Below are positions 5,011-50,652 of a stretch of 64,000 bases of DNA, piece by piece (within the stretch, counting starts at the first letter, position 1; the number at the start of each line of letters is the position of its first letter). The position numbers were made by a program, and so were the translations under genes. The stretch is from NCBI RefSeq assembly GCF_902832845.1, contig NZ_CADFDB010000001.1:620001-684000 (forward strand), read 5' to 3'. This DNA is from Burkholderia metallica (lineage in GTDB: Bacteria; Pseudomonadota; Gammaproteobacteria; Burkholderiales; Burkholderiaceae). The notes under the pieces are model-generated. The model was not told where the DNA came from and did not search any database. It saw only the letters and a list, made by a program, of their open reading frames with translations.

Positions 5011-6081
5011 TCAGCGCGCACGCGGATCGAACACGCGGTACAGCGCGTCGGTCAGCAGGTTGACGGTGATGAACATCGCGCCGATCACGAGCGTCGCGCC
5101 GAGCACCGCGTTCATGTCGGCGTTCAGCAGCGCGCCGGTCAGGTACGAGCCGAGCCCCGGCCACGCGAACACGATCTCGGTCAGCACCGAGCCTTCGAGC
5201 AGGTTGCTGTACGTGAGCGCGATCACGGTGAGCAGCGGCACCATGATGTTGCCGAACGCATGCCGCCAGATCACGCGCCGCTCGGGCAAGCCCTTCGCGC
5301 GCGCGGTGACGATGTATTCCTGGCTCAGCTGGTCGAGCATGAACGAGCGCGTCATGCGGCTCAGGTAGGCCACCGAGTAGTAGCCGAGGATCGCCGCCGG
5401 CAGCGCGATGTGCGACACCGCGTTGCGGAACGCGTCCCACTCGCCCGCGAGCGCCGCGTCGATCAGCAGGCTGCCCGTGCGCGGGTCGACCATCCCGTCG
5501 TACACGGGATCGAGCCGGCCGGGACCGCCGACCCAGTGCAGCCGCGCGTAGAACAGCAGCAGCCCCATCAGCCCCAGCCAGAACACCGGTACCGAATTGC
5601 CGACCAGCCCGACGAAGCGCGCGACGTGGTCGATCGGCCGGTTGTGCTTCACGGCGGCCGCGACGCCGAGCGGGACGCCGATCGCGATGCCGATCAGCGT
5701 CGCGATCGTCGCCAGTTCGAGCGTGGCCGGGAACACGCGTCTGATGTCGTCGAGCACCGGGTTCGCGGTCAGCAGCGACACGCCGAGATTGCCGTGCAGC
5801 ACATCGCGCGCATAGATCAGGAATTGCGTGGCGAGCGGCTTGTCGAGCCCGAGCGCGATGCGTTCGGCCGCATAGGCTTGCGCCGATGCGCGATCGCCGA
5901 GGATCGCGAGCACGGGATCGATCGGCACCTTGCGGCCGATCACGAACGTCAGCGCGAGCAGCCCCGCGAACGTGACGGCGAGCGTGAGCGCCCAGCGCAG
6001 CACGCGCAGCGCCCAGCGCACGGCCGGGCGCCGCGCGGGCAGCGTGCGCAGCGCTTCGAGGGAGGAGGCGGGAGTCGACAT
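5011..6081 (-). CDS. ddpB: Dipeptide ABC transporter permease DdpB
   Basis: This 356-residue DppB/OppB-type permease has a first membrane helix at about 30-50, then the typical GNLGVSLLTANPVLDDI segment after an extended periplasmic loop, and further helices to a C-terminus ending in FDPRAR. The EAA loop is visible in ARAKGLPERRVIWRHAFGN. It is slightly longer than the usual ~310-340 residues because of extra residues at the N-terminus and in the loop around GGPGRLDPVYDG. It starts 10 nt after the ddpA stop. Confidence 0.87.
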   Translation of the reverse strand: MSTPASSLEALRTLPARRPAVRWALRVLRWALTLAVTFAGLLALTFVIGRKVPIDPVLAILGDRASAQAYAAERIALGLDKPLATQFLIYARDVLHGNLGVSLLTANPVLDDIRRVFPATLELATIATLIGIAIGVPLGVAAAVKHNRPIDHVARFVGLVGNSVPVFWLGLMGLLLFYARLHWVGGPGRLDPVYDGMVDPRTGSLLIDAALAGEWDAFRNAVSHIALPAAILGYYSVAYLSRMTRSFMLDQLSQEYIVTARAKGLPERRVIWRHAFGNIMVPLLTVIALTYSNLLEGSVLTEIVFAWPGLGSYLTGALLNADMNAVLGATLVIGAMFITVNLLTDALYRVFDPRAR

Positions 6082-12345: not shown

Positions 12346-13599
12346 CTACTGCTGCATGTCCGGCGCTTCGCGCAGCCGCCAGATCGCGTTGCATTGCTGG
12401 CCGCCGAGGCTCGTCGAGCGCAGCGTGACGACGGTGCCGGCCGCGACCCGATACCAGAAATGCGCCATCAGCTCGGTGCCCTTGGGCTGCGCGTGCCCGT
12501 CGACCAGCACTTCGCACAGCAGCGGCGACGGCGAGCCGGACGGGTGCGTGACGTACACGTTCAGCCGCGCGATGTCGCGGGTCGCGGTGAACACGATTTC
12601 GTGGTTGCCGCTGCCGATCAGCAGCGTGCCGCCGGGTTCGTCGATCGCCTGCAGGTACGCGCCCGCGCCGGCCTCGATCGCGGCGGCCGCAACGGTCAGC
12701 CCGGCCGAGCGCACGTAGTCGGTCGCCGCGATGCGGGCGGCGAGCGCGTCGGAGCGGGCCGGCGTGCCGTCCGACAGCGCGAACGGCGCGCCGTCGCGCA
12801 GCGCGACGCCGACGTGATTCGCGTAGTAGCGCCACCGGTCGAGGAAGCGGATATCGCCGGTCATGTGCAGTGCGCGGATCGGTTCGCCGTGATACCGGAG
12901 CGTCGTCGTGCCGGTGCCCGTATCGAATGCTTCGTGAATGCCGTACTTGCTGACAAAGTTCTGCACCGGATCGAGCAGCGTCGTTTCGCCCTGGGCGCTC
13001 CACAGGTGCAGGAACGTCGTATCGATCCCGAAGCATTCCTGGAAATCGGTGCCGATGCGGGCGATGCAGTCGCGCAGGTGGCCGGCGTAGCGGGCCCACG
13101 CGTCGGCGGTCCCGGCGACGAGCCCGGCCTGCAGGGCGCCGCCGTGGCGCGCGTTGACTTCGTCGACGACGAGGCGCCAGTGATGGTCGCGCCGCTCGCC
13201 GATCAGCGGCGTGACGACGAACGTGCAGAACAGCGGGTCGGGGCACGCGTGGAGCCGGTCGTCGCCGATCTGCGAGAACAGGTCGAACGCCGGCGCGCAG
13301 AACCAGATGTCGGCATCGTACAGCGCGAGCTTGCGGATGTGCGGGTGGCGCGCGCAGTACTCGGCGGCTTCGATGAAGCGGCCGACCGGCAGCGCATACG
13401 CGCCCGACGCTTCGATCACGTCGACCGACTGGCTCGCGAGGATCTGCCGCTTGCGTTCGGACAGGCCGTAGCCGATCACCGCGACCCGGCCGTCGTAACC
13501 GGTGTGCCGCAGCGACAGCAGGAACGGGACGAGCATTTCATACCATGCGCGGTTGTTGTCGTTGATCGCCACGCAGACCGCGTGCTCGCTCGAATGCAT
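12346..13599 (-). CDS. Glycosyltransferase-like protein (GT-A fold), uncertain role
   Basis: This 417-residue soluble protein lacks a signal peptide. The first ~240 residues look like a GT-A glycosyltransferase: a Rossmann-like start (HAVCVAINDNN) and a DxD-type metal motif, YDADIWF, near residues 94-100, then a conserved acceptor-side region (ECFGIDTTFLHLW). The C-terminal ~130 residues appear to form a separate beta-rich domain of unknown role. It converges on the Nramp gene with an 18-nt gap and is followed upstream by the orphan binding protein. Donor and acceptor are unknown. Confidence 0.6.
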   Translation of the reverse strand: MHSSEHAVCVAINDNNRAWYEMLVPFLLSLRHTGYDGRVAVIGYGLSERKRQILASQSVDVIEASGAYALPVGRFIEAAEYCARHPHIRKLALYDADIWFCAPAFDLFSQIGDDRLHACPDPLFCTFVVTPLIGERRDHHWRLVVDEVNARHGGALQAGLVAGTADAWARYAGHLRDCIARIGTDFQECFGIDTTFLHLWSAQGETTLLDPVQNFVSKYGIHEAFDTGTGTTTLRYHGEPIRALHMTGDIRFLDRWRYYANHVGVALRDGAPFALSDGTPARSDALAARIAATDYVRSAGLTVAAAAIEAGAGAYLQAIDEPGGTLLIGSGNHEIVFTATRDIARLNVYVTHPSGSPSPLLCEVLVDGHAQPKGTELMAHFWYRVAAGTVVTLRSTSLGGQQCNAIWRLREAPDMQQ

Positions 13600-42466: not shown

Positions 42467-43363
42467 ATGGATCGCCGCTTACGCTGGCTGGCCGTCGCGC
42501 TGTCCTGTGCGCTGGCGGGAACCGCGCACGCACAGGCCGTCACCGGCACGCTGAAGAAGATCAAGGACACGGGCGTCGTGTCGCTCGGCATTCGCGAATC
42601 GTCGGTGCCGTTCTCGTATTCGGACAACCAGCAGAAGAACATCGGCTATTCGCGCGACATCGCGTCGCGCATCATCGACCAGTTGAAGACGGAACTGAAC
42701 CTGCCGAACCTCGCGGTGAAGGAAATTCCGATCACGTCGCAGAACCGGATTCCGCTGCTGCAGAACGGGACGATCGATTTCGAATGCGGGTCGACGACGA
42801 ACACGCTCGAACGGCAGAAGCAGGCCGCGTTCTCGAACAGCATCTTTCTCTACGGCATCCGCTTCAGCACGCGCAAGGATTCCGGCGTGAAGGACTTCGC
42901 CGACCTCGCCGGCAAGACGGTCGCGACGACCGCCGGCACGTCGGACGAGCGCCTGCTGCGCAAGCTCAATGAAGAGAAGGGGATGAACATGACGATCATC
43001 AGCGCGAAGGATCACGCCGAAGCGTTCATGAACGTCACGACCGGGCGTGCGGTGGCGTTCGTGATGGACGAGCCGCTGCTGTACGGCGAGATCGCGAAGG
43101 ACCGCAATCCGGGCGCGTATACGGTGGCGGGCACGCCGCTCGTCCACGAGAACTACGCGTGCATGATGCGCAGGGACGATCCGGCGTTCAAGCACGTGGT
43201 CGACGACGTGATCGCGAAGATGCAGACGTCGGGCGCGGCCGAGAAGCTCTACGATCAGTGGTTCACGAAGCCGATTCCGCCGAAGGGCGTGAGCCTCAAC
43301 TATCCGCTGTCGGCGGAAATGAAGCAGTTGTTCAGGAATCCGACGGATCAGGCGCAGTATTGA
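42467..43363 (+). CDS. Periplasmic glutamate/aspartate-type binding protein (GltI-like)
   Basis: This 298-residue family 3 solute-binding protein has a signal peptide (cleavage near AHA-QA). Family signatures are SVPFSYSDNQQKNIGYSRDIA, the LLQNGTIDFECGSTTNTLERQKQ segment typical of GltI, and RFSTRKDSG. It should bind acidic amino acids in the periplasm. No permease or ATPase gene follows; the next transporter is the permease-ATPase fusion at 44801, which has its own binding protein. A hairpin at 43387-43411 ends its transcript, making it an orphan component. Confidence 0.85.
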   Translation: MDRRLRWLAVALSCALAGTAHAQAVTGTLKKIKDTGVVSLGIRESSVPFSYSDNQQKNIGYSRDIASRIIDQLKTELNLPNLAVKEIPITSQNRIPLLQNGTIDFECGSTTNTLERQKQAAFSNSIFLYGIRFSTRKDSGVKDFADLAGKTVATTAGTSDERLLRKLNEEKGMNMTIISAKDHAEAFMNVTTGRAVAFVMDEPLLYGEIAKDRNPGAYTVAGTPLVHENYACMMRRDDPAFKHVVDDVIAKMQTSGAAEKLYDQWFTKPIPPKGVSLNYPLSAEMKQLFRNPTDQAQY

Positions 43364-43386
43364 CGGAATCGTGTCGCTCGAGTGCA

Positions 43387-43411
43387 GGCCGGCATGCCGA
43401 ACATGCCGGCC
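43387..43411 (+). terminator. Hairpin after the GltI-like gene
   Basis: A 10-bp perfect stem (GGCCGGCATG with CATGCCGGCC) with a 5-nt loop lies 23 nt past the stop. A second small stem (CCGGCT-4-AGCCGG) follows at 43427-43442. No T-run is present. Confidence 0.55.
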
Positions 43412-43723
43412 GTGCGTTCGAACGCCGCCGGCTTTTCAGCCGGTGATGCGGCTCGCGTCCGGCGGCCGTGAGCAGGCTCCACACTGTCCAAACCGGCCGA
43501 TGAAAGCGGCCTCGTGATCCTTCGCCGCGCGCGCCGCGTTGCCGGCGCGTCGTACTTCGCAGACATCCATCCGCGTTTCCCCGTCTCCTTTTTCCATTTT
43601 CCCCGCACCTGTGCTCCGTGCCGACAGGCCGCGTTTGCGCACGCGTGCGGTTTCTGTCCGGTCGCATCGGTTATCGCGTATACCCGGATTCAGATTTCAA
43701 TTTGAACTGGTCAGAATCGGCCG

Positions 43724-43740
43724 AAATTGTTCAACAATTT
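43724..43740 (+). promoter_or_regulatory. Palindromic operator upstream of the ABC/amidase/EctC operon
   Basis: AAATTGTTCAACAATTT is a perfect 7-3-7 inverted repeat, 92 nt before the binding-protein start. The same core, ATTGTTCAACAATTT, recurs at 49866-49880 upstream of the convergent DUF1989-gntR unit. It fits the TNGTN3ACNA pattern of FadR/FCD-type GntR regulators. Confidence 0.72.
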
Positions 43741-43832
43741 TCGGTGAAAAATCCCGGGAAGCCCCATGCGGCGGCGTCCGGGAGGCGTTGCGGCATTTCA
43801 GCGCGGGAGCCGAACAACCCAGGAGTGTTGCC

Positions 43833-44675
43833 ATGTCCGCTCATTTTCCGCTTCGCCATTTCCTTCGCGGCGCGCTCGTGCCGCTGGCCCTCGCGTGCTC
43901 GTTCGCGGCGGCGGCTCCGCTGCAGACCGTGCGGCCCGGCACGTTGCTGGTGGGCTCCGATCTCACCTATCCGCCTTATGCGTATCTGGAGGCCGGCAAG
44001 CCGGCCGGCTTCGACGCCGAGTTCTCGCGGATGCTGGCGCGCCACCTGAATCTCGAACCGGTGTTTCTCGACACGCGGTTCCCGGACCTGATCCTCGGGA
44101 TGAAGGCGCGCCGCTTCGACATCGTGGCGTCCGCGCTGTACGTGACGCCCGACCGCGTGAAGCAGGTCGATTTCGTCCCGTATCTGAAGACGGGCGCATC
44201 GCTGCTGGTCGCGAAGGGCAGCACGTTCGTGCCCAGGACGCCGCAGGACCTGTGCGGCAAGCGGGTCGGCTCGATCAAGGGCGCATCGTGGACGCCGAAG
44301 CTGCGTGCGCTGTCGCAGGATGCGTGCAAGACGACCGGACGCGGCGAGATCGCCGTTCTCGAGTTCCCGACGTCGCCTGAAGCGACGTCCGCGCTGATGT
44401 CGAAGGCGGTCGACGTCCAGATCGAGGACGCAGCCGTGGCTCAGGGGATCCCGAAGCAGACGAGCGGGCGCGTCGAGATCGGCTCGACGACGCTGCTGTA
44501 TCCGATCGTGATCGGCCTCGGGGTGACGAAGGGCGACAGCGGCCTGCTGGGTGCGCTGGAGGGCGCGCTGAGCGACGCAAGGCGCAGCGGCGAGTACGGC
44601 AGCCTCGTGAAGAAATACGGGCTGCAGGAGCCGACGGCCGCCGACGTCGCCGCTGCACTCGGTACCGCGAAGTAG
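43833..44675 (+). CDS. Family 3 amino-acid-type binding protein of the GntR regulon
   Basis: This 280-residue periplasmic binding protein has a signal peptide (cleavage near FAAAAP). Typical family 3 features are LLVGSDLTYPPYAYLEAGKP, GFDAEFSRMLARHL and DIVASALYVTPDRVKQVDFVPY, all at the expected places. It should bind a small polar or zwitterionic compound such as an amino acid or ectoine-like molecule. The start at 43833 has AGGAG upstream. It heads the operon with the permease-ATPase fusion, amidase and EctC homologue, under the palindrome at 43724. Confidence 0.85.
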   Translation: MSAHFPLRHFLRGALVPLALACSFAAAAPLQTVRPGTLLVGSDLTYPPYAYLEAGKPAGFDAEFSRMLARHLNLEPVFLDTRFPDLILGMKARRFDIVASALYVTPDRVKQVDFVPYLKTGASLLVAKGSTFVPRTPQDLCGKRVGSIKGASWTPKLRALSQDACKTTGRGEIAVLEFPTSPEATSALMSKAVDVQIEDAAVAQGIPKQTSGRVEIGSTTLLYPIVIGLGVTKGDSGLLGALEGALSDARRSGEYGSLVKKYGLQEPTAADVAAALGTAK

Positions 44676-44800
44676 GCGCACCGCGGGGCCCGAAGTACGC
44701 ATGACCCGATCATCGCGTGCCGAGCCGGCGCGCATACCCGCACCGGCGTGCACGCTGCGCGCCGGGCGGGGCATCACCCTGCGGGGTCGAGGAGTTTTCG

Positions 44801-46303
44801 ATGCAGTTCGATTGGCACTATGCGTTTCAGTTGTTGGGGGACAAGGATTTCTGGCGCGCCTGCGTCGTGGTCGTCGAACTCAGCGTCGCGGCGTGGGTGC
44901 TCGGGGTGCTGCTCGGCTTTCCGCTGGCGCTCGCGCGGCAATCGCACACGCCGCTGTTGAAGCGGGCGGCGGCCGTCTACATCTGGTTTTTCCGCAGCCT
45001 GCCGCTGCTCGTGCTGCTGGTCTTCATCTACAACTTGCCGCAGGTCTTTCCGGCGACCAGCGCGGTCCTGTCCGATCCGTTCACGGCCGGCTTGATCGCG
45101 ATGGTGCTGAGCGAGACCGCGTATTTCGCGGAGATCCACCGCGGCGGGATCCTGTCGGTGCCGCGCGGGCAGCTCGAAGCGGGGCGTGCGCTCGGCATCC
45201 GATTTACCGGCATCCAGCGGATGATCGTGATGCCGCAGGCGATCCGGATCGCGTTACCGGCGCTCGCGAACGAGTTCATCACGATCGTGAAGCTGACGTC
45301 GCTGGTGTCGGTGATCTCGCTCGCCGAGATCCTGCTCGTCGGGCAGCGGCTGTACACGCAGAATTTCCTCGTGTTCGAAACGATGCTGGCCGTCGCGTTC
45401 TACTACGTGTTGATCGTCACGGTGTTCAGCCGGCTGCTCGGCTATCTCGAGCGGCACCTCGACGTCAGCCGCCGCGCACCCGCGCCGGCCGGCCATACGC
45501 ACGTCGAACTGCCGCTGTCGGCGCCGGCCGTCGCGCCGAGGCCGCGCGCGAACGCCGAATTCGCGCTGCGCATGAAGGGCGTGCAGCAGCGCTACGGGCG
45601 ACACGAGGTGCTGAAGGACATCCATCTCGACGTCGTGCCGGGGCAGGTGGTGTCGATCATCGGCCCGTCGGGCTCGGGCAAGACGTCGCTGATTCGCACG
45701 GTCAACGGACTTGCGCCGGTGAACGCGGGCGAGATCGACCTGTACGGCGAGCCGTTCATCCGGGCGCCGGGTTCGCGTCCGCCGCGTATGTCGCACGAGC
45801 GCATTCTCGATATCGGCATGGTGTTCCAGAGCTTCAACCTGTTTCCGCATCGCACCGCGTTGCAGAACGTGATGATGGCGCCTTGCTATCACCGCCAGGG
45901 CGACGACGCGGCGATTCGGTTGCAGGCGCTGTCGCTGTTGTCGAAGGTCGGGATGCTGGAGCATGCGAACAAGTACCCGCATCAGCTGTCGGGCGGCCAG
46001 CAGCAGCGCGTCGCCATTGCACGCGCGCTCGCGACGCGGCCGTCGATCATGCTGTTCGACGAACCGACGTCGGCGCTGGATCCCGAACTCGTCGGCGAAG
46101 TGCTGAAGGTCGTCGAAACGCTCGCGAAGGAGGGGATGACGATGATCATCGTCACGCACGAGATGAACTTCGCGTTCAAGGTATCCGATCGCATCGTATT
46201 CATGGAAAACGGCCGGATTCTTTACGACGTGCCGCCTGAACGGATTCGCGGCAGCGCGGACGAGCGCGTGCAGGACTTCCTGAAGCACGTTCACTTCGCA
46301 TGA
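44801..46303 (+). CDS. Permease-ATPase fusion of an amino-acid-type ABC transporter
   Basis: This 500-residue protein joins two usually separate subunits. Residues 1-220 form a HisM/GlnP-type permease (five helices, EAA loop EAGRALGIRFTGIQRMIVMPQA at 126-147), a Pro/Ala-rich linker spans about 225-252, and residues 253-500 form the ATPase (Walker A GPSGSGKTS at 288-296, Q-loop MVFQSFNLFPH, LSGGQQQR, SIMLFDEP, VTHEM). A homodimer would make a full transporter. It starts with a GGAG site at 44801; the frame back to 44717 has no similarity. Its stop overlaps the amidase start (ATGA). Confidence 0.88.
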   Translation: MQFDWHYAFQLLGDKDFWRACVVVVELSVAAWVLGVLLGFPLALARQSHTPLLKRAAAVYIWFFRSLPLLVLLVFIYNLPQVFPATSAVLSDPFTAGLIAMVLSETAYFAEIHRGGILSVPRGQLEAGRALGIRFTGIQRMIVMPQAIRIALPALANEFITIVKLTSLVSVISLAEILLVGQRLYTQNFLVFETMLAVAFYYVLIVTVFSRLLGYLERHLDVSRRAPAPAGHTHVELPLSAPAVAPRPRANAEFALRMKGVQQRYGRHEVLKDIHLDVVPGQVVSIIGPSGSGKTSLIRTVNGLAPVNAGEIDLYGEPFIRAPGSRPPRMSHERILDIGMVFQSFNLFPHRTALQNVMMAPCYHRQGDDAAIRLQALSLLSKVGMLEHANKYPHQLSGGQQQRVAIARALATRPSIMLFDEPTSALDPELVGEVLKVVETLAKEGMTMIIVTHEMNFAFKVSDRIVFMENGRILYDVPPERIRGSADERVQDFLKHVHFA

Positions 46304-47673
46304 CGAATGATCCGGGAAAAGCGGAATTGAATGCGGCGGAGTTTCAGCACGGCCCTGCGGTCGAACGCGCATGCGTCGACCGGCTGCGCGCCTGTCTTGC
46401 GCAGGCCGACGCGTATCGCGACGACATCGAAACGGCATGGCTCGCGCGCCGCGACGCCGCAGCGATGGCCGATGCACATGCGTGCGATGCATCGCGGCGC
46501 GCCGGTGCGGCCGGCTTGCCGCTGGCCGGTGTCGTGCTGACGGTGAAGGCCTGCTTCGATTGCGCGGGCTGGATCACGCATGCCGGTTCGCGCGTGCTCG
46601 CCGACGCGCCGCCGGCCGCGGTCGACGCGACGGCGGTGTCGGCATTGCGTCGTGCCGGCGCGGTGCTGGTCGCGCAGACGGCGATGACCGAGTTCGCGTA
46701 CGGTGCGCTCGGCGTGAACCGTGCTTACGGGACGCCGACGACACCGCTCGATGCGCGGCGCGAGCGCGTTGCCGGCGGATCGAGTTCGGGCGCGGCCGTG
46801 TCGGTCGCGCTCGGTGCGGCCGATCTGTCGCTGGGTTCCGATACGAGCGGGTCCGCACGCATACCGGCGGCATTCTGCGGCGTGACCGGATTCAAGCCGT
46901 CGCGCGGACGTTATCCGGACGGCGGCATGCAGTTTCTGTCGACGCGCTTCGATGTGCCGGGCCTGCTGGCCGCGACGGTCGACCTGTGCCGTCGTGCGGA
47001 CGCGGTGCTGTGCGGTCGTGACGAACGGCGGCCGTCGCGCACGCCGGTGCGGGTTCGCGATCTGGATTTCGTCGTGCCCGAGCCGTTCGCGACCGACGAT
47101 CTCGATCCCGTCGTTGCGCGCGCATTCGACGCGTGGCTGTCGCGGCTTGCCGCACACGGCGCGCGGATTCGTCGCCAGCGGCTCGACTGTGTGGCCGAGG
47201 CCGGCGCCGTCGCCCGTGCGGGCGGCATCATCGCGGCCGAAGCGTTCATGCTGCACCGTGCGCGGCTCGCGACGGCAGCGAACCGCTACGATCCGCTGGT
47301 CGGACCGCGCATTGCCGCGGGCGAGCAGGTGCGCGCACACGATTATGCGGCCGCGCTGCTGCGTCTCGCCGCAATGGCCGACACCTACGATGCCGAACTC
47401 GGCGATGCGGATGCGGTGCTGACGCCAACGGTGCCGATGCTGCCGCCGCGCATGACCGATCTTGCCGACGAAACCGCGTACCTCGAACAGAACGGGCGTG
47501 CGTTCCGGTTGACCGAATTCGCGAACCGGCTCGACCTGCCGAGCATCAGCCTGCCCGGCGACCTGCACGATCGACGGCCCGTCGGCCTGCTGATCACCGG
47601 GCGCCGCGGCAGGGACGCGCGGCTGCTCGATATCGCCGCGGCGGTCGAGCGTGCGCTTGCCGATTCCGCATGA
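46300..47673 (+). CDS. Amidase signature family hydrolase (AtzE/GatA-like)
   Basis: This 457-residue cytoplasmic amidase has the Ser-cisSer-Lys triad: Lys83 (TVKACFD), the cis serine in AGGSSSGAAV (about 161-162) and nucleophile Ser185 in GSDTSGSARIPAAFCG. The family hydrolyses amides, ureas and related C-N bonds; substrate cannot be read from sequence. It overlaps the transporter gene by 4 nt, so it acts on the imported compound or its product. AtzE-type amidases of this length often act on small nitrogen-rich acids. Confidence 0.85.
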   Translation: MTNDPGKAELNAAEFQHGPAVERACVDRLRACLAQADAYRDDIETAWLARRDAAAMADAHACDASRRAGAAGLPLAGVVLTVKACFDCAGWITHAGSRVLADAPPAAVDATAVSALRRAGAVLVAQTAMTEFAYGALGVNRAYGTPTTPLDARRERVAGGSSSGAAVSVALGAADLSLGSDTSGSARIPAAFCGVTGFKPSRGRYPDGGMQFLSTRFDVPGLLAATVDLCRRADAVLCGRDERRPSRTPVRVRDLDFVVPEPFATDDLDPVVARAFDAWLSRLAAHGARIRRQRLDCVAEAGAVARAGGIIAAEAFMLHRARLATAANRYDPLVGPRIAAGEQVRAHDYAAALLRLAAMADTYDAELGDADAVLTPTVPMLPPRMTDLADETAYLEQNGRAFRLTEFANRLDLPSISLPGDLHDRRPVGLLITGRRGRDARLLDIAAAVERALADSA

Positions 47674-47734
47674 CCTGCTTTCCGGCGGCAAGGCCTGCCT
47701 TGTCATTTTCCATCAATACTATTAAGGAAAACTC

Positions 47735-48133
47735 ATGATTGTCGTAAGATCGGACGATATCGCCAATACCGAACGCCACGCATGCGGTCCGGGCTGGGAC
47801 AGCAAGCGCATGATCGTCAAACAGGACGGCGTCGGCTACTCGGTCCACGAGACACGGGTTCACGAAGGCGCGGAACTGCATCTGCACTACAAGAACCATT
47901 TCGAAACCAACTACTGCGTGGCGGGGGAAGGGGAAGTCGTCGATACGGCGACGGGCGACGTGCACCGGATCACGCCCGGAACGATCTACGCGCTGAATCT
48001 GAACGATCCGCATATCCTGCGCGCGACGCGCGGCGATCTGCATCTCGTGTGCGTGTTCAACCCGCCGCTGACCGGCCTCGAAACGCACCGGGAAGACGGC
48101 AGTTACGCGTTGCCGGCGGACGGGCACGCGTGA
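47735..48133 (+). CDS. Ectoine synthase homologue (EctC-like cupin), solitary
   Basis: This 132-residue cupin closely resembles EctC, which closes the ectoine ring from N-gamma-acetyldiaminobutyrate. The iron ligands known for EctC are kept (Glu57, Tyr85, His93), as are Trp21, Tyr52 and the block CVFNPPLTGLETHREDGSY. No ectA or ectB is in the window, so ectoine synthesis from scratch is unlikely. EctC can run backwards, and it can cyclise glutamine to the cyclic amidine ADPC. Next to an uptake system and amidase it may process an imported cyclic amidine (inference). It is 61 nt after the amidase gene. Confidence 0.85.
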   Translation: MIVVRSDDIANTERHACGPGWDSKRMIVKQDGVGYSVHETRVHEGAELHLHYKNHFETNYCVAGEGEVVDTATGDVHRITPGTIYALNLNDPHILRATRGDLHLVCVFNPPLTGLETHREDGSYALPADGHA

Positions 48134-48157
48134 CGGCGCGCACCGGCCGCGCGATGC

Positions 48158-48832
48158 TCACGCGGCCTCGCGCTGGCTGCGCTTGATCGCTTCGACGAGC
48201 ATCCGCTCAGAATCGTCGAGATAGCGGGCCAGCGTCGTGACGGCCTCGCTGCGACGGTTCTGCGTGAGCAGGTCGTAGATCTGGTATTCGCGCTGGATCC
48301 AGTCGGGTGTCTGTACGCGCCGCTCGTCGGGGTCGGCAGCAAAGACGAGGCGCAGCTGCGCCGAGATGGTGCGGAAGAACTCGTCGAGCAGCGCCGATTT
48401 CTGCAGCGCGACGATATGCTGATGAAACCGCAGGCTGTGCGTGCCCACGGCCTGCCAGTTCTGCTTGTCGAGTTCGCGCTCGGCCGCCCGGATGGCGACC
48501 TGCATTTTCTCGAGCAGCGCCGGCTGCGCGAGTTCGGCGGTGTTCAGCGCATGCAGTTCGAGCGTGCGGCGCGCGACGTAGAGATCGCGCACGTCCTGGC
48601 GGTTGAGCGTGCGGACGACGACGCCCTTGTGCCGCACGAACGTGACGAGCCCTTCGCGGCCGAGCTGGTGCAGCACTTCGCGCAGCGAATTGCGCGACGT
48701 GTCGTATTCGGCGGCAAGGTCCATTTCGATCAGCGCGGTGCCGGGCGGCAACTTGCCGCTGATGATGTGCTCGCGCAGTTGATGGCTGATTCGGTCAGCG
48801 ACCGACTGTCCTCTCGCTTTTTCGCTTGCCAT
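48158..48832 (-). CDS. GntR-family (FCD domain) regulator
   Basis: This 224-residue protein has a GntR winged helix (about 10-75, GTALIEMDLAAEYDTSRNSLREVLHQL) and an all-helical FCD ligand domain (about 90-215, with the metal-type histidine motif HSLRFHQHIVAL). FCD regulators usually sense small carboxylates. It is convergent with ectC (24-nt gap) and follows the DUF1989 gene by 84 nt on the same strand, sharing its promoter. The two palindromes at 43724 and 49866 are the probable targets. Confidence 0.86.
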   Translation of the reverse strand: MASEKARGQSVADRISHQLREHIISGKLPPGTALIEMDLAAEYDTSRNSLREVLHQLGREGLVTFVRHKGVVVRTLNRQDVRDLYVARRTLELHALNTAELAQPALLEKMQVAIRAAERELDKQNWQAVGTHSLRFHQHIVALQKSALLDEFFRTISAQLRLVFAADPDERRVQTPDWIQREYQIYDLLTQNRRSEAVTTLARYLDDSERMLVEAIKRSQREAA

Positions 48833-48863
48833 GCCGTTCGTTCGCTCCTCTCCTGATCGTGCG

Positions 48864-48885
48864 CCGCCGGCGTGGCGGCCGGCGG
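48864..48885 (-). other. Intercistronic hairpin between the DUF1989 and gntR genes
   Basis: An 8-bp GC stem (CCGCCGGC with GCCGGCGG) with a 6-nt loop lies between the two co-directional genes. There is no U-tract. It may lower expression of gntR relative to the gene before it, or may be chance in GC-rich DNA. Confidence 0.35.
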
Positions 48886-48916
48886 TGTTTCGCCATTCTA
48901 CGGGCTGCGGCGCGCG

Positions 48917-49777
48917 TTACGCCGTCTTGTCGCGCTGCCAGTCGGCCTGCGGCGGCTGCATCCCGTGCTGGCCGCGATACGGCGCGACCGACGGCTGCGA
49001 CCAGCCTTCGAGCAGGCTCGGGGCGAGCCGGTAGACCTCGACGCCGAGCGGCCGGCACACGTCGATCGGGTCGCGCGCGTCGGGGCCCCACATCGGCACC
49101 GACAGGTCGCCGCCGGGGCAGGTGGACATCGCGCACAGCAGGTCGATTTCCGCGAAGAATTCGAGGTAGTCGCCCGGCTTCGCGGGGCACGCCTTCATGA
49201 AGTATTTGTCGTCGCTGTTCAGGCCCGTGCACTGGAACACGTTGAGCACGTCGTGCACGTCGAATTCGGTCAGCCCGTACGGCGCGACGGCGCGCACGAG
49301 GTTCGAGTGGCAGTGGAAATGAAAATCCTCGCCGGTCAGCAGCTTGTTCACGTACGGGTCGCAGCGTGTGCCGAGCAGGTCGTGGACGCGGCCGCCGTCG
49401 CCGTCGACGCCATAGCCGGCAAGCGTGTCGTCGGTGATCGTCGCCATCGGGCGCAGATACGGCAGTGTCGACCAGAGCCGGTCGAACGTGCTCACGTGCG
49501 CGGCCTGCAATTGCCGGGTGCGCGACGCCCACATGCGTTCGCGCGGATTGTGCAGGTTCCACATGTTGAAGTCGGCCACCTGCGGCCCCTCCAGCGTGAC
49601 GATGCGGAACACGTGGCCGGCCGGGACCGTCCATGCGAAGCCGCTGCGGATCGGCACGATATGCGACTCGATGCGTTCGCGCGCGTCCTGGCGTTGGGCG
49701 ATCGCGGAATAGAAGGCAGTGTCGACGTTCAGGACGGAGCCCTTGGTGACCTGGTAGGCAGCGGGATAGTTCGACAT
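48917..49777 (-). CDS. DUF1989 / urea-carboxylase-associated family protein
   Basis: This 286-residue soluble protein has the DUF1989 layout: GFAWTVPAGHVFRIVTLEGPQVADFNMWN, then DDTLAGYGVDGDGGRVHDLLGTRCDPYV and FHFHCHSNLVRAVAPYG, with conserved cysteines in CTGLN, CPAKPGDY and CPGGD that could bind metal. Relatives form the carboxyguanidine deiminase CgdAB and other urea-carboxylase-associated proteins, so deimination of a guanidino or amidino compound is possible (inference). No urea carboxylase gene is present. It has its own strong promoter (49896-49926) and the palindrome at 49866. Confidence 0.82.
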   Translation of the reverse strand: MSNYPAAYQVTKGSVLNVDTAFYSAIAQRQDARERIESHIVPIRSGFAWTVPAGHVFRIVTLEGPQVADFNMWNLHNPRERMWASRTRQLQAAHVSTFDRLWSTLPYLRPMATITDDTLAGYGVDGDGGRVHDLLGTRCDPYVNKLLTGEDFHFHCHSNLVRAVAPYGLTEFDVHDVLNVFQCTGLNSDDKYFMKACPAKPGDYLEFFAEIDLLCAMSTCPGGDLSVPMWGPDARDPIDVCRPLGVEVYRLAPSLLEGWSQPSVAPYRGQHGMQPPQADWQRDKTA

Positions 49778-49865
49778 GACGCGGTACTCTCGGGGAAGTG
49801 GGCAGGTGCGACGATCCGGCTGAAATCCTTTGTGTTGGCCGGTCAGGCGTCAATTCCGATGCATG

Positions 49866-49878
49866 ATTGTTCAACAAT
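49866..49878 (-). promoter_or_regulatory. Second copy of the GntR-type operator, before DUF1989
   Basis: ATTGTTCAACAAT is a perfect 5-3-5 palindrome, followed by TT on the plus strand so that 15 bases match the site at 43724. It lies 17 nt downstream of the -10 box and 88 nt before the start codon, suitable for repression. Confidence 0.72.
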
Positions 49879-49895
49879 TTATCGACGCTTCGGGG

Positions 49896-49926
49896 AGTAT
49901 AGAGGGAAGGCGGGGAGGTGTGTCAA
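49896..49926 (-). promoter_or_regulatory. Sigma70-type promoter of the DUF1989-gntR unit
   Basis: On the minus strand TTGACA (49921-49926) is a perfect -35 and TATACT (49896-49901) a near-perfect -10, with a 19-bp spacer that is slightly long. The expected start point near 49889 places the palindrome at about +11 to +23. Confidence 0.65.
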
Positions 49927-50034
49927 TGGGTGGAAAGTACGGAGGCGCCGGCGTTTCGATCCGCGTTGGGGCGGGCCGCGCGCGCTCGTTCGCCGGGACG
50001 GGAAACGCTCGAGCCGCGCGCGACCGGCAATAAA

Positions 50035-50060
50035 AAACCGCCGGCATGTGCCGGCGGTTT
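50035..50060 (-). terminator. Rho-independent terminator after the Met/Gln-rich exported protein gene
   Basis: A 12-bp perfect stem (AAACCGCCGGCA with TGCCGGCGGTTT) with a 2-nt loop lies 49 nt past the stop, and on the minus strand it runs into TTTTTTATT. Confidence 0.85.
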
Positions 50061-50109
50061 CGGTATCGGATCCAGTCGCTCGCTCGTTCGCGCGCGACGC
50101 AGCGTTGTG

Positions 50110-50652
50110 TCAGGTCTTGATTTCAGGTCCGCGCGCGGCCGGCCGGGCCGGCGCCTCCGGTGCGGGCGCAGGCGCCACCGACCGCGCGGACGGCTGCGCC
50201 GGCACGATGACGAGCACCGGCTCGGGCATTGCCCACGGCGCCATCGCGAACCCGACCGGTTGCGGCATCGGCATCGCCAGTGCGTTGGCGAGCGCGACGT
50301 GCTGGAGCGCCATCATCTGCTGCTGCATGGCGACCATCTGCGCCTGGGCCGCCTGCATCTGATACTGCGCGGCCTGTATCTGCCGCAGCGCGGCGGCCGG
50401 CGGCATGCCGCCCGACGACGACGTCTGCATCTCGAAGCGCGCGCCGCCTTGCGGGCTCTGCCAGCGCCACGTGCTGACCTTCATCGGGCCGACGGCCGTC
50501 TGGACCACGCGTGTTTCGGCTTTCACGGGCACGGCCTGCCCGTCGACGTTGACGAATATCGGCTGGGCGACGGCGGCGCCGGTCTGCCCGGCCAGCGCGA
50601 ACACGGGCGCGAGTGCCAGTGTGCCCGCCGCCATGAACGAACGGAATCGCAT
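50110..50652 (-). CDS. Exported Gln/Met/Ala-rich protein, unknown function
   Basis: This 180-residue protein has a signal peptide (cleavage around AVA-QP). A short beta-rich region (IFVNVDGQAVPVKAETRVVQ and STWRWQSPQGGARFEM) is followed by a helical Gln/Met/Ala repeat-like stretch (IQAAQYQMQAAQAQMVAM), likely a coiled coil, then a Pro-rich tail. I chose 50652 because GGAG lies 8 nt upstream; the ATG at 50658 is too close to it. I do not recognise a family. Confidence 0.6.
   Translation of the reverse strand: MRFRSFMAAGTLALAPVFALAGQTGAAVAQPIFVNVDGQAVPVKAETRVVQTAVGPMKVSTWRWQSPQGGARFEMQTSSSGGMPPAAALRQIQAAQYQMQAAQAQMVAMQQQMMALQHVALANALAMPMPQPVGFAMAPWAMPEPVLVIVPAQPSARSVAPAPAPEAPARPAARGPEIKT

Follow-up and report, generated by a model that had tools for sequence, protein, structure and literature searches.

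The locus described here raises two linked questions, namely what controls a block of six genes that is bounded by two identical palindromes, and which compound the encoded proteins handle. It lies in a window of 64,000 nucleotides of Burkholderia metallica (the whole stretch that was analysed; contig NZ_CADFDB010000001.1, positions 620,001 to 684,000). The block consists of two units on opposite strands; the first encodes an amino acid-type substrate-binding protein (SBP), a fused permease-ATPase of an ATP-binding cassette (ABC) transporter, an amidase and an EctC-like cupin, and the second a DUF1989 protein and a GntR/FCD regulator. We think it reasonably probable that the palindromes are operators of a repressor related to PxpR of Corynebacterium glutamicum, and that the block is a regulon for a 5-oxoproline-type compound. 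This reading starts from the sites themselves, their restriction to two copies, the coupling of the site to one clade of GntR proteins, the identity of its core with that of the PxpR site, and the linkage of both site and DUF1989 to 5-oxoprolinase genes. The argument for regulation, made from sequence, is strong, and the proposed class of ligand is likely.

The palindromes and their distribution

A 13-bp core, ATTGTTCAACAAT, is present at 43726-43738 and 49866-49878, within a 15-bp stretch, ATTGTTCAACAATTT, that is identical at both palindromes. No further match to the core was found in the window with up to two mismatches allowed, and the four matches counted (two places, both strands) compare with a mean of 0.21 and a maximum of 2 in 100 shuffles. 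In the whole genome (7,554,727 bases in 37 contigs) these are the only two exact copies of the core, ATTGTTNAACAAT, and three further places match it with one mismatch, whereas base composition alone leads one to expect about 0.009 exact sites per genome. The first-pass annotation of this DNA had drawn attention to the two identical palindromes, had seen no third copy and had judged the pair unlikely to arise by chance, and all three statements are borne out by these counts. Its near-consensus promoter before the second palindrome stands in part: operator 2 starts 17 bases past TTGACA-N19-TATACT on the minus strand, and both hexamers are conserved in the nine Burkholderia sequences compared, but a promoter scan of 43350-50200, which takes spacers of 16-18, found no promoter, the spacing here being 19. 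Operator 1 is embedded in a stretch that is almost invariant across eight Burkholderia sequences compared.

The pair recurs within the genus, where we sampled 65 genomes and called GntR orthologues at E <= 1e-40. The exact core is present in 19 genomes and a GntR orthologue in 15, all of which have the exact core; 46 of the 50 genomes without GntR have no exact site, and the other four have one site each. The two sites lie on a single contig, 6,113-6,164 bp apart, in 13 genomes, while G024 has two sites on two contigs and G020 has one; G034 has a third site elsewhere, with A or T at its centre. The gene order and both sites are shared by seven Burkholderia loci (L006-L010, L012, L013). G020 has the DUF1989-GntR unit with its one site (L096), and no transporter-amidase-EctC unit turned up in the surrounding 19 kb, the sole EctC-family gene of this genome being a distant one on another contig. 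No related genes lie near the exact sites of G010 and G032, two of the genomes without GntR, and the query proteins have no tblastn match within about 5 kb of the sites of G009 and G046 or of the third, A-centred site of G034.

Outside the genus we surveyed 60 loci that contain a DUF1989 gene of the type with solved structure 3di4, of which 41 are from the family of the Pseudomonas locus L027 (all 41 matches) and 19 from the family of the window (19 of 20 matches, G867 being left out); nine matches within Burkholderia were excluded from the count. GntR genes counted as adjacent when they shared the strand and were no more than 1.5 kb away, and a site was counted if it had no more than one mismatch and lay no more than 200 bp upstream of the first gene. 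There is an adjacent GntR gene in 34 loci and a site upstream of the operon in 33 of these (32 exact), the single exception, L181, being cut by a contig end; the 26 loci without GntR include three with a one-mismatch site (L148, L163 and L184). No other site within one mismatch was found in the 1,059,428 bases of the 60 loci. The Fisher values calculated (2e-12, 1e-13 and 2e-11) ignore relatedness and overstate the evidence. The motif thus does not turn up at many unrelated genes, as the first-pass annotation had considered it might, either in these 1.06 Mb or in the 46 of 50 Burkholderia genomes that lack both GntR and site, and the two-unit regulon tied to the GntR/FCD gene that it had proposed is supported by the genome and genus site scans together with the locus survey.

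Two of the DUF1989 genes without adjacent GntR (L148:8551 and L163:8509) have their one-mismatch site 22-30 bp upstream. In six loci (L126, L138, L141, L142, L144 and L178) the SBP gene is preceded by two sites at a distance of 22 bp, which is roughly two turns of the helix. An operon of SBP, permease/ATPase, GntR and DUF1989 genes, without EctC and amidase, is found in Pseudomonas, Paraburkholderia, other Burkholderiaceae and a Klebsiella plasmid; some other loci hold GntR and DUF1989 alone, and none of the 60 has an EctC gene. Because the core operon exists elsewhere without both, the EctC and amidase genes are a lineage-specific addition to the core regulon.

Relation of the site and its regulator to PxpR

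The GntR-type regulator PxpR of C. glutamicum, a member of a different phylum, is described in a paper of 2026 as a repressor of pxpTABC (PMC13274462); alteration or deletion of 5'-agattgttcaacaatct-3' raised reporter expression 6.5-fold, and PxpR binds 5-oxoproline with a dissociation constant (KD) of 726 nM, with no binding reported there for proline, glutamate, glutamine or aspartate. The core of the window sites is identical to that of the PxpR site, both window sites being exact, and operator 1 matches the PxpR site at 15 of 17 bases. The suggestion that the system may be undescribed in kind is therefore not supported, since its operator core is that of a published site and its core unit recurs in other lineages.

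Several loci connect the site, or DUF1989, to 5-oxoproline metabolism. PxpA, PxpB and PxpC domains are encoded downstream of DUF1989 in L132 (by Pfam), a pyroglutamyl peptidase gene (pcp) adjoins DUF1989 in Azospirillum (L125), and DUF1989-PxpABC neighbours were found in Pseudomonadaceae. A Klebsiella IncFIB plasmid (L122) carries two units with PxpR-type sites (5889-5901 and 12994-13028), each with one mismatch: one consists of SBP, permease/ATPase, GntR and DUF1989 genes, and the other of a GntR gene and an NRAMP-PxpA-hydrolyase-PxpBC-biotin carboxylase series, with two sites 22 bp apart. Relatives of this second Klebsiella GntR were collected from 11 plasmid loci, and in ten of them (L209-L216, L218 and L219) the GntR gene adjoins annotated 5-oxoprolinase subunits or their usual partners and has a site within one mismatch, although L212 has no annotated PxpA and L214 has PxpA alone, the gene tables being incomplete; the eleventh, Agrobacterium L217, has neither such neighbours nor a site. 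A Shinella locus (L102) combines GntR, site, PxpA, PxpBC, biotin carboxylase and DUF1989, and an actinobacterium (L205) supplies a further Pxp-linked GntR. Pxp-adjacent GntR genes with a site within one mismatch are thus those of the ten plasmid loci, L102, L205 and the second of L122.

The alphaproteobacterial loci L016, L017 and L018 encode GntR proteins 37-41% identical to that of the window. In Shinella daejeonensis (L016) an exact site precedes an SBP-permease/ATPase-GntR-amidase-EctC unit, and the only two exact sites in that genome belong to this EctC-amidase operon and to a GntR-5-oxoprolinase-DUF1989 operon; there are two additional one-mismatch sites. In Brucella tritici (L017) the genes are rearranged and DUF1989 forms a separate unit; the site that precedes the SBP gene is exact, the one that precedes DUF1989 has one mismatch, and five more sites within one mismatch lie elsewhere in the genome, which makes seven in all. 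In the 3.9 Mb of Paracoccus (L018) a single site within one mismatch was found; it has one mismatch and lies upstream of the SBP gene. The PxpR-identical core, the GntR relatives beside 5-oxoprolinase genes and the two exact sites of Shinella together make it probable that the block is a regulon by which a ring compound of the 5-oxoproline type is taken up and degraded.

The 15-bp site is also present in three of 396 actinobacterial genomes. One copy lies beside a GntR gene, Pxp-like and pcp-like genes and two membrane protein genes read as DUF969/DUF979-like, and another between a GntR gene and a gene read as DDAH-like without a family search; for the third we have no explanation. At L206:7364 the actinobacterial GntR of the DDAH-like locus, with the same operator, stands before genes read, again without a family search, as DDAH-like and ornithine aminotransferase-like, and it has histidine at both of the positions where others have Asn/Asp/Glu and Tyr.

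Comparison of 64 GntR proteins, with C. glutamicum PxpR outside both the alignment and the tree, shows that the recognition helix SRN[ST][LIV]RE is common to all 64. The main difference is at residue 182, which is an asparagine in all 12 Pxp-linked proteins and the second Klebsiella GntR, as well as the Agrobacterium one, and an aspartate or glutamate in all 48 proteins linked to DUF1989 or EctC and in the first Klebsiella GntR; the window protein has a glutamate, and the GntR beside the DDAH-like gene a histidine. This is presumably the position of the metal-ligand histidine of ordinary FCD domains, and the structure model of the window GntR is confident (pLDDT 90). The 49 acidic-residue proteins lie on one side of a branch with support 100/98, for which the program warns of meeting long branches. 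Because the window protein belongs to the sister clade and has a glutamate where the Pxp-linked proteins have an asparagine, its ligand may be a close analogue of 5-oxoproline, perhaps the cyclic amidine of glutamine. The Asn versus Asp/Glu difference can be a single old change, and to tie it to the ligand is a guess.

Several points weigh against a 5-oxoproline-type ligand. The window GntR stands in the sister clade of the Pxp-linked proteins (a tree that omits PxpR itself), and the DDAH-like neighbour of a GntR with the same operator means that the ligand cannot be told from the operator by itself. PxpA was found by tblastn in just 11 of the 60 DUF1989 loci (3 of 34 with GntR, 8 of 26 without). 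The host's own PxpB-C-A genes, on contig C6, lie outside the regulon, with no site within one mismatch in 19 kb, and PxpA is present in 64 of the 65 genus genomes, with or without the cluster.

The enzymes and their candidate substrates

The features of the block are collected in the table. The window SBP reaches the cut-off of none of the 13 NCBIfam models listed. Beside the block, at 42467-43363, there is a gene for a glutamate/aspartate-type SBP (NCBIfam PRK10797, above cut-off) that has no operator.

Table. Genes and putative regulatory elements of the block, in window coordinates
Feature	Position	Strand	Remarks
Operator 1 (putative), AAATTGTTCAACAATTT	43724-43740	.	5' of the SBP gene
SBP_bac_3 substrate-binding protein, polar amino acid type	43833-44675	+	Domain search
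Fused ABC permease-ATPase	44801-46303	+	Domain search
Amidase-signature hydrolase	46300-47673	+	Domain search
EctC-like cupin, orphan ectoine synthase type	47735-48133	+	Asn59
GntR/FCD regulator	48158-48832	-	Recognition helix SRNSLREV; Glu182; sister clade of Pxp-linked GntRs
DUF1989 protein, 3di4 type	48917-49777	-	Cys139, His153, Cys156, Cys220
Operator 2 (putative), ATTGTTCAACAATTT	49866-49880	.	5' of the DUF1989-GntR unit
Promoter-like TTGACA-N19-TATACT	49896-49926	-	Upstream of operator 2; read from sequence

From the observations above we infer a scheme of binding, repression, ligand, substrate and enzyme order in which ligand-free GntR would bind both operators and keep both units silent, operator 2 lying just past the promoter-like sequence and operator 1 in the presumed promoter region of the SBP gene. 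An incoming 5-oxoproline-type ring compound would release GntR, the derepressed ABC transporter would import more of it, and its conversion towards glutamate would fall to DUF1989, the EctC-like cupin and the amidase.

The EctC-like protein retains the catalytic residues W21, R25, T40, Y52, E57, Y85 and H93 and scores 179.8 bits against NCBIfam PRK13290 (cut-off 128); there is no ectA or ectB in the block, the rest of the genome not having been searched for them. Eleven active-site positions were compared between the 19 amidase-linked EctC proteins and five from ect clusters, and ten of them agree, with Trp21 replaced by Phe in two of the 19 (L031 and L061). Position 59, two residues past the iron ligand Glu57, is an asparagine in all 19 and a valine in all five (of which L110 and L111 are nearly identical); Asn59 is also found in six of 15 other EctC proteins. 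A search of the 297 genomes of the Brucella (G066) family at E <= 1e-40 gave three matches, namely that of G066 and those of L110 and L111 in ect clusters.

Amidase-EctC cassettes are found elsewhere (L023, L026, L027, L031, L059, L060 and L061) with varying partners, such as DUF2817 and VOC proteins, FMN reductase and RidA, or M24 peptidase. A Shinella EctC gene (L058) adjoins aconitase, with iron and glycine-betaine transport genes near and no amidase. Divergent Burkholderia EctC-like genes (L097, L098, L099 and L100) are 39-50% identical and have Val or Cys at position 59, and neither an amidase nor an ectAB relative was detected beside them.

The DUF1989 protein matches Pfam PF09347 with 198.5 bits and is of the 3di4 type, whose solved structure was deposited as an uncharacterised protein; the model of the window protein is poor (pLDDT 62). 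Cys139, Cys156 and Cys220 are invariant in the 17 sequences aligned and His153 is nearly so, and a zinc site is predicted from their sequence: the cysteine spacings are 17 and 64, with the histidine three residues before the second cysteine, and those of Tdm, with its zinc site of C263, C279, C343 and H276 (PMC12560246), are 16, 64 and three. The equilibrium of simple 5-oxoproline hydrolysis is unfavourable (Keq of about 0.035; PMC13274462), which makes it unlikely that DUF1989 acts as a plain 5-oxoprolinase. Production of 5-oxoproline from a close analogue is the better fit, since the Klebsiella plasmid combines an ABC-DUF1989 unit with one that has PxpA and an NRAMP-type (PxpT-like) transporter.

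A cyclic amidine is a possible substrate. One version of this, which we consider rather unlikely, has the regulon degrade 5-iminoproline (ADPC), the cyclic amidine of 5-oxoproline, with DUF1989 deiminating it to 5-oxoproline, EctC opening it to glutamine, the amidase converting this to glutamate and ammonia, and the repressor sensing the amidinium group through its acidic residue. ADPC units occur in natural products (noformicin, anthelvencin), a point that our literature search did not establish. The proposal draws on the deiminase relative of DUF1989, on the Asn versus Asp/Glu split of the regulators and on the opening of ADPC to glutamine, a known side reaction of EctC with an equilibrium that favours glutamine (PMC5924519).

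Ectoine-type catabolism, in which EctC would run in reverse on an imported ectoine-like compound to N-acetyl-diaminobutyrate and the amidase would remove the acetyl group, is improbable, a little more so than the breakdown of ADPC. It gains from the catalytic residues that the window EctC retains, from the company of the amidase-EctC pair elsewhere, which includes EhuB-type transporters, with the SBP passing the EhuB cut-off in L026 (Pseudomonas) and L061 (Rhizobium), and from the divergent regulator of L060 and L061 (both Rhizobium), which is annotated as of the pyridoxal phosphate (PLP)-dependent aminotransferase family and which we read as MocR-type. The window SBP, however, scores 62.1 bits with the EhuB model, whose cut-off is 190.9, the operator belongs to the PxpR type, Asn59 separates the amidase-linked proteins from those of ect clusters, the GntR/DUF1989 survey loci are free of EctC, and ectoine hydrolysis by Halomonas EctC is called negligible in PMC5924519. 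Because the SBPs of L026 and L061 pass the EhuB cut-off, the amidase-EctC pair may serve ectoine-like amidines elsewhere. Harder still to credit, and in our view very improbable, is a role of the orphan EctC in osmoprotection, with ectoine made from imported N-acetyl-diaminobutyrate: a Pseudomonas syringae report that would speak for it is summarised in PMC5924519, which calls it not yet conclusive, whereas the precursor would probably not survive the amidase encoded in the same operon, a GntR/FCD repressor would be more in keeping with catabolism, and the asparagine at position 59 sets the group apart from EctCs of ect clusters.

Scarcely more plausible than osmoprotection is a nitrogen route of the guanidine or urea type, with DUF1989 as a carboxyguanidine deiminase and the amidase acting like allophanate hydrolase. 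DUF1989 family membership, weak matches to UAAP2 and UAAP1 and the relationship of the amidase to biuret and allophanate hydrolases agree with it, but the UAAP scores (61.6 and 44.4 bits) fall well short of the cut-offs (284.7 and 205.95), the block contains no urea or guanidine carboxylase, and no Rfam RNA family, guanidine riboswitches included, reaches its gathering score in 43300-50200. The least probable alternative is that another regulator binds the palindromes and that they lie beside the GntR gene by coincidence; GntR binding is a prediction from sequence, which leaves room for it, and the close association of the site with GntR across 60 loci and 65 genomes and the recognition helix held in common with the Pxp-linked proteins argue against it. 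A regulon for a 5-oxoproline-type compound is the reading we prefer to each of these, and it suggests that the orphan "ectoine synthase", the amidase and DUF1989 may act in taking up and degrading a pyroglutamate-like compound.

Comparison with known systems

Our literature searches found no paper naming both DUF1989 and ectoine synthase, no DUF1989-mentioning paper titled on 5-oxoproline, no matching paper on pyroglutamate uptake in Burkholderia, and, in a search that did not cover RegPrecise, none reporting PxpR-type operators in Beta-, Gamma- or Alphaproteobacteria. The main text of a GntR motif paper (PMC4494728) does not mention oxoproline, ectoine, DUF, ATTGT, Burkholderia or glutamine, and the main text of PMC13274462 nowhere names Burkholderia. 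The present finding extends PxpR-type operators from Corynebacterium to these three classes, and the operator shared with PxpR, together with the linkage to 5-oxoprolinase genes, yields a short list of substrates for the orphan EctC and the 3di4-type DUF1989. The ADPC proposal, if true, would supply a function for the Asn59 group of orphan EctCs and for 3di4-type DUF1989.

Orphan EctC proteins make up 145 of 582 members, a quarter, of an EctC data set, and their function is called unclear in the accounts of PMC6344544 and PMC5924519. The window gene resembles them in lacking neighbouring ectAB genes and keeping the catalytic residues; it differs in belonging to a GntR regulon that also includes an amidase and an importer, the published accounts leaving function open. 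Carboxyguanidine deiminase, a DUF1989 family member according to PMC11271267, and Tdm belong to the same Pfam family as the window DUF1989, whose Cys3/His spacing is much like that of Tdm; compared with carboxyguanidine deiminase, the window protein is of the 3di4-type subfamily and falls far below the UAAP cut-offs.

The plasmid-borne clusters of Alphaproteobacteria, Klebsiella and Pseudomonas aeruginosa in which GntR is linked to Pxp genes have the same site, within one mismatch, and the same recognition helix as the window, and the pxp operon of Rhizobium gallicum ends with DUF1989; these clusters (L122, L209-L216, L218 and L219) adjoin 5-oxoprolinase genes, whereas the window block does not. 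With the PxpR-pxpTABC system as described in PMC13274462 the block shares a GntR-type regulator, an identical operator core and a transporter gene in the controlled unit, but where that system has the NRAMP-like transporter and PxpABC, the block has an ABC importer, amidase, EctC and DUF1989, and it carries two operators, one at each end.

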